Source of the DNA: Acidisarcina sp.
GTDB lineage: Bacteria > Acidobacteriota > Terriglobia > Terriglobales > Acidobacteriaceae
Direction: 5' to 3'
DNA length: 64,000 nucleotides
Assembly: GCA_035539175.1 (NCBI GenBank)
Contig: DATLIY010000007.1
Coordinates: forward strand, 248,001 to 312,000
Both the position numbers and the translations under genes were made by a program. Numbering within the stretch: the first letter of the stretch is position 1; each line of letters starts with the position of its first letter. Below the pieces are notes generated by a model. The model was given only the letters and a program-made list of their open reading frames with translations, ran no database searches and had not been told where the DNA came from. Of the stretch, positions 3,274 to 7,081 are shown piece by piece.

Positions 3274-5559
3274 ATGCCTGCTCGCAGCAAGCGGGACCTC
3301 ATGATCTCCAGCGGCTGGATCCAAGCGGCCGTCATCGTTCTCATCATCGGCTTCTTCATCATGGGAGTGCTTACCTATTACACCTATAGCGATGAACCCC
3401 CCATTCCTGAAGTCGTAAAAGCGCCAGACGGCAGTGTCCTCTTTACACGTGCGGATGTCATGGCGGGCCAGAGCATCTTTCTGCGCAACGGCCTTATGGA
3501 ATACGGTTCGATCTTTGGCCATGGCGCGTACCTCGGTCCCGACTTCACCGCTGAGTATCTCCATCGCGCCGCTATCGCCAGCATCGCCTTCTATGGCGGA
3601 ACGAACTCCGACACCGCGAAGACCCGCACCATCCAGGACTTCAAGGCAAACCGCTATGACCCGGGCACCGGCGTACTTACCTATACCGAAGCTCAGGTAT
3701 ACGCATTTGAGCAATGCCGCGCCTACTACTCCACTTTCTTTGGAGAACCAACTACCCGCTTCGGGCTCAGGCCCGGGGCTATTCGCAATCAGGAAGAGAT
3801 TCGCCAACTCGTGGCCTTCTTCAGTTGGACAGCCTGGTCTGGTTCTACAGCTCGTCCCGGCCATTCTTACTCCTACACCAACAACTGGCCGCCGGAGCCG
3901 CTCGTCGATAATCACGCCACCGCGGACTCTATCGTCTGGAGCGTGCTCTCACTCGCCGCGCTGCTTGGTGGCACCGGCCTGCTCCTCGCTGCATTTGGCC
4001 GCTGGAACTTTCTCGGATGGCACGGGCGCGAGATGCAAAGTATGAACTTCCGCGCACCAGATGATGTCCTCCTCACTCCTGCGCAAAAAGTATGCGTCTG
4101 GTTCTTTTTCGTCATGGCCGCCTTGTTCGTTGTGCAGACGCTTCTCGGCGGCGCAACCGAGCACTATCGTGCCGACCTGCAGACCTTCTTCGGCTTTGAT
4201 CTTGGCCGCCTGCTGCCATTCAACGTAGTTCGAACCTGGCATCTGCAACTCTCTGTCTTCTGGGTCGCCACCTCCTATCTGGCCGCGGGAATTTTTCTCG
4301 CACCAATGATCGTCGGACGCGAACCTAACGGACAAAACTTTCTAGCCTATGGATTGCTCGGTGCTCTGGTCATCGTTGTCGTGGGAAGCCTTGTCGGCGA
4401 GTTCGGTGGCATCCAGGGGTTCATCCGCAATGCCTGGATTGGAAACCAGGGATTTGAGTGGCTCGACCTTGGACGCCTCTGGCAGATCCTGCTGGTCATT
4501 GGCCTTTTCTTCTGGGCTGTCATTCTTTATCGCGGACTGCGAGGACGCCTCGCCTCAGAGCATCTGGGGAACATGCCCTGGCTCTTCTTTTTCTCGGCGC
4601 TCTCCATCCCTGCGTTCTATAGTGTCGGCCTCCTCGCCCATCCCGCGGAGCACTTCACAACGACCGACTTCTGGCGCTTCTGGGTAGTTCACCTCTGGGT
4701 CGAAGATTTTCTCGAGTTGTTCACCACAATCCTCGTCGCCTACATCTTCGTGCTTCTGGGAGTCGTGCACGAGCGCATGGCGCTGCGGTTGATCTATCTC
4801 GACATCATTCTCTATTCAGCGGGCGGCATCGTCGGCACAATGCACCATGTCTACTTCTCCGGCGAACCCGCTCTCCACATGGCCCTCGGCGCCTTCTTCT
4901 CCGCTGCGGAGGTCATACCTCTCACCTTCCTCACACTGGAATCCTGGAGCTTCCTCCAACTCGGCGTCGTTCAGGAGTCCAACTCAGCGACTCCCTTCCC
5001 CCACTACTGGGCCGTCATGTTCCTCGCTGCCGTCGGCTTCTGGAACTTCCTCGGCGCCGGAATCTTCGGCTTCCTTATCAACCTGCCCGTAGTCTCCTAC
5101 TACGAAATCGGCACCGCACTCACAGCGAATCACGCGCACGCATCCATGATGGGCGTCTATGGAATGCTCTCCGTAGGTCTCGCGCTCTTCTGCCTGCGTT
5201 ACATCATCCCGCAGAAACATTGGTCCGATAACGCCGCGAAGATCAGCTTCTGGTCGCTGAATCTCGGGCTCGCGTGGATGGTCTTCGCCACCCTCTTCCC
5301 TCTTGGTGTGCTCCAGCTCTATCACTCCATCAACGTCAGCTATTATGATGCCCGCACCCTGTCCTACATCGGCAGCCACGCCAACTCTGTATTGGAGTGG
5401 ATGCGTATGCCCGGAGACGTTGTCTTCATCGTCGGCGGCACTTTGCCAATTCTCTACCTTACTTTTCTGGGAATTCGCTACATGAACAAGCCAACAGCCT
5501 TGAAGGAACCGGAAGGCGTACTCTTTACCGAAGTAGTCACTCCAAGTCAACGGAACTGA
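3274..5559 (+). CDS. norB: Quinol-dependent nitric oxide reductase (qNOR), single subunit
   Basis: A 761-residue inner-membrane enzyme that reduces 2 NO to N2O with electrons from quinol. Length and layout match qNOR: an N-terminal membrane anchor, a roughly 200-residue periplasmic domain without a haem c CxxCH motif, then about 12 helices of haem-copper oxidase type. Ligand-bearing helices are visible: WHLQLSVFW, HLWVEDFLELF (with the conserved glutamate near the non-haem iron), MHHVYFSG and NHAHASMMGVYGML. The start is ATG 3274, preceded by CGAGGAG at 3261-3267; the frame is open further upstream to 3241 without a better site. No other denitrification gene is nearby, so it may serve NO detoxification. 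The next gene starts two bases after the stop. Confidence 0.95.
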   Translation: MPARSKRDLMISSGWIQAAVIVLIIGFFIMGVLTYYTYSDEPPIPEVVKAPDGSVLFTRADVMAGQSIFLRNGLMEYGSIFGHGAYLGPDFTAEYLHRAAIASIAFYGGTNSDTAKTRTIQDFKANRYDPGTGVLTYTEAQVYAFEQCRAYYSTFFGEPTTRFGLRPGAIRNQEEIRQLVAFFSWTAWSGSTARPGHSYSYTNNWPPEPLVDNHATADSIVWSVLSLAALLGGTGLLLAAFGRWNFLGWHGREMQSMNFRAPDDVLLTPAQKVCVWFFFVMAALFVVQTLLGGATEHYRADLQTFFGFDLGRLLPFNVVRTWHLQLSVFWVATSYLAAGIFLAPMIVGREPNGQNFLAYGLLGALVIVVVGSLVGEFGGIQGFIRNAWIGNQGFEWLDLGRLWQILLVIGLFFWAVILYRGLRGRLASEHLGNMPWLFFFSALSIPAFYSVGLLAHPAEHFTTTDFWRFWVVHLWVEDFLELFTTILVAYIFVLLGVVHERMALRLIYLDIILYSAGGIVGTMHHVYFSGEPALHMALGAFFSAAEVIPLTFLTLESWSFLQLGVVQESNSATPFPHYWAVMFLAAVGFWNFLGAGIFGFLINLPVVSYYEIGTALTANHAHASMMGVYGMLSVGLALFCLRYIIPQKHWSDNAAKISFWSLNLGLAWMVFATLFPLGVLQLYHSINVSYYDARTLSYIGSHANSVLEWMRMPGDVVFIVGGTLPILYLTFLGIRYMNKPTALKEPEGVLFTEVVTPSQRN

Positions 5560-5561
5560 AG

Positions 5562-6116
5562 ATGAGCAACATACCCATCGAATACGTTCTGGCCCTCGGG
5601 TATGCGATCTTTCTGCTGGCGGCCGCCTTGTTGCTTGAGGCGGCCTCCCGCTATGCCTATCGCCGATCACTCCAGACCAGCACGATGGGCTTCACCTACC
5701 ATCCCGAACGCAACATCTGGAAGTGCCCCGAGAACCAGCACCTCTTCCCCGTCTTTACAGATCCGTTCAAGGGGTCTGTAACCTACCGTGCACACGCCGC
5801 CACCTGCAACGCATGCCACTGCAAGCCCTCCTGCACCGACTCTTCCTCCGGCCGGGAAATCGTACACAAGAGCACTCCCAGCCTGAAATATGGCATGCAA
5901 CACTTTCATCGGGGCCTTTCGCTCATGCTGCTCACCCTGGCCAATCTCATCCTCATCGTCGAGATGCTGCGCACGCCCGGCTTCTACCCACGCGCCCTCC
6001 TACTCGCCGTGCTGGTTCTCTTCTGCGCTATTGGGATGCGCCTCTTCTCCGGGCTTCCTCCTGGTACGCCACAACCTGGTATGCCACAGCAGCATCCAAA
6101 CCATGCTCGTTTCTAA
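5562..6116 (+). CDS. norB-linked membrane protein with Cys-rich zinc-ribbon-like domain
   Basis: 184 residues, starting two bases after norB, so certainly co-transcribed. One N-terminal membrane helix (about residues 8-27), a soluble part with WKCPENQHL and then YRAHAATCNACHCKPSCT, and two C-terminal membrane helices (about 115-160). The spacing CP-x-(N/G)-x-x-L ... YR ... CxxCxxxxxC resembles the zinc-ribbon segment found in IS1182-type DDE transposases, but no catalytic transposase domain is present. The four or five cysteines could bind zinc or another metal. No known family was recognised. Its tight linkage suggests a role in assembly of, or electron or NO sensing by, the reductase; this is inference. 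Confidence 0.75.
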   Translation: MSNIPIEYVLALGYAIFLLAAALLLEAASRYAYRRSLQTSTMGFTYHPERNIWKCPENQHLFPVFTDPFKGSVTYRAHAATCNACHCKPSCTDSSSGREIVHKSTPSLKYGMQHFHRGLSLMLLTLANLILIVEMLRTPGFYPRALLLAVLVLFCAIGMRLFSGLPPGTPQPGMPQQHPNHARF

Positions 6117-6190: not shown

Positions 6191-7081
6191 ATGTTTCCTC
6201 TGTCTCCCATAGCATCGCGGCTCCATAAAACACAGCCTCGGCGCGGGCTTCTAGCTTGCGCACTGATCTTGTTCTTCCTGCCTTCCTCCAGCGCGCATGC
6301 AAACTCAGATTCAGCCCCGCAGGAAGGCTCTTCCGTCAGTTCTTCCTCACTGCCGGAGGCGCCTCAGCCCCAGGCCACTCGGCCTCAGAGCACGTCCGCC
6401 AGTCCAACAGAGGATCGCGACGCAGTCACCCTTCGCAACACGCCCGTCCACATTCTCAAGGATCAGGCAGCTATCTGGACCAGTCCTCTCCGCATGCGTC
6501 CTCATGACCTCATATGGCTTCTGCCTTTTGCCGGTGCAACCGGCGCGGGCATCGCCACGGATCATCACGTCATGTCTTCAGTAGTCAGCCACGATGCCGG
6601 CTTCAACCAGCACAACATCGATGCATCCAACGCGCTCATTGGAAGCCTTATCGCACTACCGGCAGCCACCTATGGATTCGGCTATTTCAAGGACAATCCG
6701 CACGCTCGCGAGACAGGCATCCTGGGCGCCGAAGCGCTGGTCGATGGAGTCGTTGTCGAGCAGGGACTCAAGTTCATCTTCTGGCGCGAAAGACCATCCG
6801 ACGACCACGCGCGTGGTCTGTTCTTTCAATCAAGTTCCGGAGCAGATTCTTCCATGCCGTCATCGCATAGCCTCTTGGCGTGGTCTTCCGCTGCCGTCAT
6901 CGCGTCCGAGTATCCCTCTATCTGGAGCCAGGTCGGCGTATATTCCCTGGCTACCGGAGTCAGCGTGACCCGCGTGCTCGGCCAGCAGCACTTCCCCACA
7001 GATGTATTGCTGGGCAGCGCGGCAGGATGGCTGATTGGCCATTACGTCTATCGCGCCCACCACAAACACACCGCTCACTAG
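6191..7081 (+). CDS. PAP2-family phosphatase, exported
   Basis: 296 residues. An N-terminal signal sequence (LLACALILFFLPSSSAHA) is followed by a Ser/Pro/Gln-rich linker and a PAP2 domain (about 100-290). The three family motifs are present: KFIFWRERP, SMPSSHS (PSGH box, with Ser for Gly) and SVTRVLGQQHFPTDVLLG. The family dephosphorylates phosphatidate or undecaprenyl pyrophosphate on the outer face of the inner membrane, or haloperoxidase-like substrates. ATG 6191 has no good ribosome site, so a slightly different start is possible. It is separated from the norB pair by 74 bases with no clear terminator. Confidence 0.88.
   Translation: MFPLSPIASRLHKTQPRRGLLACALILFFLPSSSAHANSDSAPQEGSSVSSSSLPEAPQPQATRPQSTSASPTEDRDAVTLRNTPVHILKDQAAIWTSPLRMRPHDLIWLLPFAGATGAGIATDHHVMSSVVSHDAGFNQHNIDASNALIGSLIALPAATYGFGYFKDNPHARETGILGAEALVDGVVVEQGLKFIFWRERPSDDHARGLFFQSSSGADSSMPSSHSLLAWSSAAVIASEYPSIWSQVGVYSLATGVSVTRVLGQQHFPTDVLLGSAAGWLIGHYVYRAHHKHTAH

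Follow-up and report, generated by a model that had tools for sequence, protein, structure and literature searches.

In the sections consulted of the published reports on quinol-type nitric oxide (NO) reductases (qNORs), these enzymes appear as single-subunit, single-gene enzymes (PMC6713497, PMC10256718, PMC9976466). The locus analyzed here raises the question of what a second, small membrane protein is doing when it is encoded directly behind such a gene. The window, i.e., the whole stretch of 64,000 nucleotides from Acidisarcina sp. that was analyzed, carries on the forward strand an open reading frame at 5562–6116 (P0001, the accessory gene or partner), which translates into 184 amino acids plus a stop codon with no internal stop and is a real gene. 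The first-pass annotation had placed its start two bases after norB and, in fact, the norB stop codon TGA lies at 5557–5559 and the accessory ATG at 5562, leaving a gap of 2 bp.

The upstream NO reductase gene

The norB (norZ) gene occupies positions 3274–5559 of the forward strand and encodes 761 amino acids when its start is taken as the ATG at 3274; beginning instead at an upstream in-frame GTG (3241) would lengthen the protein by 11 residues. In a Pfam scan, NorB matched PF22085 (E 7.3e-52) and COX1 (PF00115, E 3e-49), corresponding to a NorC-like N-terminal domain followed by a haem-copper-type catalytic domain, and its residues 30–754 could be aligned with the solved qNORs 28pn/8bgw (E 1.4e-160). 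The helix bearing the active-site Glu was kept (HLWVEDFLE opposite HLWVEGFFE), and H308, R722 and D726 (numbered from the GTG and counted by hand in the alignment) correspond to H305, R720 and D724 of the Alcaligenes enzyme, whose roles at the quinol site are described in the part consulted of PMC10256718. Since the domains, the active-site helix and the quinol-site residues are all kept, the gene upstream of the accessory gene is, judged by its sequence, an ordinary full qNOR of the NorZ type, with NO reduction as its predicted activity. The same genome contains a second qNOR (G000:C3:160796-162961), which belongs to the standard clade, is 41% identical to the window NorB and has no partner.

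In comparison with the single-gene qNORs, as described in the sections consulted, the clade of the window NorB differs by a second conserved gene, present at 20 of the 21 loci found, and by an extra C-terminal NorB tail (5506–5556, +). This tail carries the motif L-[FY]-x-[ED]-[VIL], which was observed in 19/19 partner-bearing NorBs, in the partnerless NorB of genome G384 (L110) and in the Streptomyces NorB discussed below (P0003), and in none of the 11 outgroup rows of the NorB alignment. The tail is thus clade-specific and represents a candidate docking peptide for the partner, a role that its retention in the partnerless G384 neither supports nor refutes.

Regarding the surroundings of the pair, visual inspection of 22 stretches upstream of norB showed no evident common operator. 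On the 3′ side, a gene of the PAP2-family phosphatases (6191–7081, +; E 1.6e-17) follows the accessory gene after 74 bp in the window, and the genes found in this position at two other loci (L002 and L036) differ from it. At both distant loci, an SPFH/Band 7 gene is found immediately 3′ of the partner (L106:5600-6370 and L108:5600-6358), and genes other than SPFH/Band 7 come after the partner in the window, L002 and L036.

The cysteine ribbon and its membrane setting

The accessory protein harbors an IS1182-type ribbon at residues 42–103 (5685–5870, +), delimited by its match to NF033551, by profile alignment and by a model of the domain alone, which reached a pLDDT of 90.7. Its four presumed metal ligands are Cys55 (codon 5724–5726, +) and Cys82, Cys85 and Cys91, arranged as C-x2-C-x5-C (5805–5834, +). 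These cysteines were found to be invariant in 19 aligned accessory sequences, window included, and also in another set, of 18 sequences, which includes those of Pseudonocardia and UR.bin238; the idea of a domesticated metal-binding module was therefore not refuted on this point, on which loss of the cysteines in homologues would have counted against it. Zinc is a label given by analogy to this presumed Cys4 metal site.

A likeness of this segment to IS1182-type transposases, in a protein devoid of a transposase core, had been pointed out in the first-pass annotation, and both statements were borne out. It was verified that only residues 40–114 of P0001 match the NCBIfam model NF033551 (IS1182 transposase), with an E of 3.5e-8 and 32.8 bits, far below the cut-off of 270, and that the match to Pfam PF13751 (DDE_Tnp_1_6; E 0.00097) is also under its cut-off. 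Both matches recurred at E <= 0.01 in all 18 members of alignment A4 when each was scanned singly. When the accessory family was compared by hhalign with 11 transposases, the single alignment reported covered the ribbon only (76 columns, E 5e-15, probability 98.4), and the membrane helices gave no alignment. Indeed, no DDE core was found in P0001, whose membrane helices stand where the transposase stretch after the ribbon would be.

The resemblance extends along the roughly 65 residues of the ribbon, in which F-x-Y, D, CP, L, Y-x-A, C-x2-C-x5-C, T and R are equally placed in the IS1182 family. In an alignment of 23 accessory and 12 transposase ribbons (A6), F, C-P, C-x2-C-x5-C and R were invariant, and F-x-Y, D, L, Y-x-A and T almost so; the spacing from the first Cys, C-x26-C, was common to the accessory ribbons and 8 of the 12 transposases. 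An HMM built from 11 transposase ribbons scored all 23 accessory ribbons at 51.5–64.5 bits, against 20.9–33.3 bits when the cysteines were masked and 1.0–11.9 bits when the other residues were shuffled with the cysteines in place. In the reverse direction, the 11 transposase ribbons scored 34.3–57.7 bits, with 12.3–32.0 for masked and −0.7 to 16.1 for shuffled versions, these two controls overlapping slightly. Therefore, the resemblance is not due to the four cysteines alone, and common descent of the accessory ribbon and the IS1182-type ribbon is strongly supported by these comparisons. What sets the accessory family apart from the transposases is the lack of the DDE core and of the rest of the transposase, the position of the ribbon between membrane helices, and W53, N83 and the F-H-R motif, which are family-specific in the sets aligned. 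Additionally, in a tree of 35 ribbons built on few columns, the 23 accessory ribbons fell together on one side of a branch (95/87).

The three membrane helices proposed in the first-pass annotation agree with the hydropathy of P0001, whose 19-residue maxima lie at residues 9–27, 118–136 and 145–163, and with the AlphaFold2 model, in which helices 6–40, 107–137 and 141–163 surround the beta-rich Cys domain (best model with mean pLDDT 82.5 and pTM 0.67; 70.0–77.1 for the four others). The core of the first helix (TM1, residues 7–28; 5580–5645, +), also defined by segment charge, is followed by a positively charged stretch. The motif Phe115-His116-Arg117 (5904–5912, +), invariant in both alignments, opens the second helix, and TM2 and TM3 span residues about 120–162 (5919–6047, +). 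Mean net charges over 18 sequences were −0.33 for the N-terminus, +2.89 after TM1, +1.17 for the TM2–TM3 loop and +1.0 for the tail. Due to the positive stretch right after TM1, the ribbon is predicted to be best placed in the cytoplasm, a placement weakened by the charge of the TM2–TM3 loop. Since just 2 of 23 accessory ribbons have a His after the CxxC and the prediction places the domain in the cytoplasm, the window CNACH was rejected as a haem c site and regarded as a CxxCH by chance; a conserved CxxCH of the NorC type is thus lacking in these ribbons.

Structure comparisons yielded no significant relative for the ribbon domain in the PDB (best Foldseek E 1.0; best VIA Z 3.3, with 4.2 A over 61 residues), and the best Foldseek E values for the whole model were 0.47 in the PDB and 0.13 in the viral library. 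Matches of the model to MIT domains and ribosome recycling factors, with VIA Z up to 10.0 (2.4 A over 78 residues), were discarded as generic three-helix bundles, for which such scores are common. Sequence searches of the PDB with the family, the ribbon, the transposases and the Streptomyces protein returned nothing better than E 0.2.

Distribution, inheritance and the ribbonless relative

A profile search (A1) of 398 genomes of the window's family (Acidobacteriaceae, judging by the named members Edaphobacter and Silvibacterium) recovered 20 full-length accessory members, window included. Scores then fell off clearly, and the 29 weaker matches that followed were almost all limited to the ribbon, 16 of them lying in open frames of at least 440 aa. 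In the same genomes, a NorB search that scored at most two candidates per genome, and whose counts are thus lower bounds, found 21 loci at >= 72% identity to the window NorB and 87 at 39–53%, split genes being counted once. The accessory gene stood directly 3′ of norB at 20 of the 21 window-clade loci found, and all 20 full-length members adjoin norB, which runs against the possibility, considered beforehand as a refutation, that homologues would rarely be found next to norB. At the remaining 87 norB loci no full-length accessory relative was found, 17 of them having also been searched directly (L040–L053, L120–L122), and no partner relative was detected downstream in the 45%-identity qNOR clade (L040, L041, L120–L122) or in the plasmid relatives L124 and L125. 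The exception within the clade, G384 (L110, G384:C10), holds a complete and intact norB frame with no trace of the accessory gene at E <= 10. Because G384 lost the gene yet keeps norB intact, the partner would be helpful and not strictly essential. Among the 20 members, G589 (L112, G589:C2) carries an intact accessory gene beside a norB cut to its last ~125 residues, with an unrelated frame upstream; elsewhere among the 21 clade loci, G381 has a broken norB frame, and in G392 and G510 the norB gene is split or interrupted by contig ends.

Outside the family sample, a search of 396 genomes of the phylum detected the full-length accessory protein only in the window and in G195, the 10 other matching genomes having ribbon matches, and when 297 phylum genomes were searched by a BLAST-type method, full-length members were again limited to these two. 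A first scan of species genomes with P0001 alone revealed no relative. Among plasmids, P0001 found none, and the Pseudonocardia protein found two records only, both annotated as IS1182 transposase. A pattern scan of the species-genome collection, which depends on short conserved words and says nothing on absence elsewhere, gave 13 loci; in 12 of them norB immediately precedes the match, and the remaining one is a Hymenobacter transposase (L109). Eight of these loci repeat the family sample and are not independent (L099 and L104 are G311, L100 is G195, L101 is G418, L102 is G392, L103 and L105 are G610, and L107 is G462), and L097, L098, L106 and L108 are new. In this way the pair was recognized in Pseudonocardia acaciae DSM 45401 (norB 64% and partner 45% identical to those of the window) and in a metagenome-assembled genome titled Acidobacteria bacterium UR.bin238 (58% and 39%).

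The two genes are adjacent and co-inherited, the partner being nearly always encoded with one norB clade. The intergenic gap ranged from −4 to +23 bp at 19/19 loci with a complete norB, and in a norB tree of 31 rows the 19 partner-bearing norBs and that of G384 grouped together as a single clade (100/100), separate from the 45% and 40% clades. The distances of norB and of the accessory gene were correlated (Spearman 0.90, reached in 0 of 2000 permutations; 0.53 within the largest subgroup, 1 of 2000), with the accessory protein diverging faster (mean p-distance 0.527 versus 0.249 for NorB). In the seven of the eight nearest pairs that were not saturated, which share six sequences, dN/dS was about 0.13–0.27 for the accessory gene and 0.05–0.09 for norB; the accessory gene is under purifying selection.

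A further member of the norB clade was found on plasmid NZ_CP108071.1 of Streptomyces sp. NBC_00271 (L123), whose NorB is 62% identical to that of the window and ends in the tail LLFTEV. Overlapping this norB by 4 bp, a hypothetical protein of 129 aa is encoded (P0002, L123:6322-6711), which shows an N-terminal hydrophobic helix, a short linker, the sequence WPHSEAHRFHH, in which the F and H of the F-H-R motif are kept, and a hydrophobic second half, with no ribbon. Scanned against Pfam, P0002 stayed below every cut-off (best E 0.013), and NCBIfam yielded nothing. Its relationship to the partner is supported by BLASTP with the Pseudonocardia protein (E 7e-6), by hhalign against A4 (E 5.7e-8, probability 94.7) and by an HMM devoid of the ribbon columns, which scored 36.0 bits, over all 499 scored of 500 shuffles (top 12.7); an HMM of TM2–TM3 alone scored 34.5 bits. 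Since the hhalign alignment covers the TM2–TM3 half only, the Streptomyces TM1 is matched by its place and not by significant sequence similarity. Upstream of this pair, the annotation lists an Rrf2-family regulator and a truncated haemoglobin. Two other Streptomyces plasmids contain decayed remnants of the norB end and of a ribbonless partner (L126 and L127, about 3917–4313).

The norB tree places Streptomyces as the sister group (98/100) of Pseudonocardia plus UR.bin238, both of which have the ribbon. Owing to this grouping, loss of the ribbon in Streptomyces would be simpler than two gains, a reading made tentative by the uncertain root within the clade and the long branch of L108. Whichever direction the change took, this comparison of sequences suggests that norB can be accompanied by the membrane part without the ribbon. 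As the Streptomyces relative retains the membrane part, the latter looks like the constant partner of norB and the ribbon like an added module, on the example of one intact ribbonless gene. Thus, the earlier view of a domesticated metal-binding module serving as a qNOR partner held with respect to its common descent with the IS1182-type ribbon and its pairing with norB, whereas its emphasis has to be shifted to the membrane part, which is constant, the Streptomyces form being ribbonless.

Possible roles of the partner

The near-constant pairing with one norB clade, the purifying selection and the predicted cytoplasmic Cys4 module are the reasons for which the accessory protein is read here, with a confidence slightly above even, as a second small membrane subunit or a tightly coupled partner, such as a close regulator, of one qNOR clade. 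The earlier interpretation was largely on track and is partly supported, its functional part being putative. In this arrangement, the three helices would pack beside NorB with the N-terminus outside, and the first and second helices would extend into the cytoplasm, bearing the Cys4 metal ribbon near the cytoplasmic face, the side of proton uptake in qNOR, whose protons come from the cytoplasm according to the parts consulted of PMC6713497 and PMC10256718. The ribbon may dock on the cytoplasmic L-[FY]-x-[ED]-[VIL] tail of NorB, and the job of the partner may be to stabilize or tune the enzyme through its assembly, its proton-channel access or its dimer, qNOR being reported in the same parts as dimeric in cryo-EM and monomeric in two crystal forms. 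The metal-thiolate site could possibly represent an NO- or metal-sensitive switch, or the ribbon may simply keep the complex together. A bolder version, which we regard as speculative and rather doubtful, is a two-subunit quinol NO reductase in which a qNOR clade gained a three-helix subunit whose built-in IS1182-type ribbon would sense NO or metal as a cytoplasmic metal-thiolate switch and gate the proton-entry side, Streptomyces-like lineages keeping the subunit without the switch.

Membrane or metal-related partners encoded together with an NO reductase are known for cNOR, namely NorC, NorQ, NorD, NorE and NorF; however, the domains of these proteins were not among the Pfam matches of the accessory protein, including VWA or MoxR AAA+ domains of the NorD/NorQ type at E <= 5. 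Likewise, the CuANOR of Bacillus azotoformans is an NO reductase variant bearing an extra metal centre, which in the part consulted of PMC10256718 is a di-copper site fed with electrons by cytochrome c551, a domain of this kind being absent from the accessory protein in the Pfam scan. By analogy with the action of NorQ and NorD on cNOR, the partner could be an assembly or iron-loading factor that transiently helps to insert or protect FeB, its Cys4 site handling iron. The tight pairing with a single norB clade and the invariant Cys4, whose predicted location is the cytoplasmic side, the same side on which NorQD acts in the case of cNOR (PMC9976466, in the part consulted), would fit such a factor. 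This reading is nevertheless considered unlikely, given that FeB insertion in qNOR is reported in the same part of that source to proceed without additional genes, that the only evident metal site, the ribbon, is missing in Streptomyces, that one norB of the clade lost the gene and that the VWA and AAA domains mentioned above are lacking among the Pfam matches.

Somewhat less probable still is a sensor of NO or of redox state, in which the metal-thiolate ribbon would react with NO and gate NorB or signal to another target: invariant thiolates beside an NO-consuming enzyme and the Rrf2-family and truncated haemoglobin annotations near the Streptomyces relative are in line with it, whereas the Pfam and NCBIfam scans revealed no effector domain scoring over its cut-off and the ribbonless form indicates that the ribbon is dispensable for pairing with norB. 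The homology of the ribbon to that of transposases could also suggest a membrane-tethered regulator that retained a role in binding nucleic acids, which appears very improbable, since DNA binding by the IS1182 ribbon itself is only putative and both the pairing with one clade (Acidobacteriaceae, Pseudonocardia) and the ribbonless form are easier to reconcile with a protein partner than with a DNA target. Finally, the similarity to transposases, the decayed copies in two Streptomyces plasmids and the orphan of G589 could be taken as signs of a hitch-hiking or decaying transposase fragment with no function as a unit. Such a fragment is hardly credible, being contradicted by the purifying selection, by the invariant Cys and F-H-R, by the single clade shared with norB and by membrane helices that do not align with transposases.

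As for the physiological setting of the second subunit or close partner favored here, the part consulted of PMC5900883 describes NOR genes (cNOR and qNOR homologues) in strains of Acidobacteria subdivisions 1 and 3 devoid of dissimilatory nitrate and nitrite genes. The nitrite reductase searched here was nirK, and none of the 12 chosen genomes had a match to its model TIGR02376 at or above the cut-off. Weaker matches occurred in nine of the 12 and, since seven of 14 control genomes also matched (one of them over the cut-off), they are read as general multicopper proteins. On the basis of the published strains and of the nirK result, NO detoxification is, by inference, the likelier setting.

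A partner gene of a qNOR was not found described in the openly licensed literature, as judged by titles and the beginnings of abstracts, so a second conserved membrane gene for a qNOR clade is apparently new, as far as this literature shows. This matters because qNOR is treated as a one-gene NO reductase and, in contrast to cNOR, draws its protons from the cytoplasm, and a natural clade with a second membrane protein, in ribbon and ribbonless forms, offers a ready-made experiment on the effect of an added subunit. It also documents that a transposase-type domain has been reused in a membrane protein associated with NO reduction. In public records, the NorBs of L123, within the clade, and of L124 and L125, in the neighboring clade, are annotated as 'cbb3-type cytochrome c oxidase subunit I'; among the matches listed, 'cbb3-type oxidase' is the annotation of 5 of the 15 plasmid relatives of norB, including the closest, and the remoter ones are annotated as nitric-oxide reductase. 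The enzyme concerned converts nitric oxide to the greenhouse gas nitrous oxide in one soil-bacterial lineage and, because of such annotations, part of this N2O-forming norB group may escape soil and denitrification surveys.
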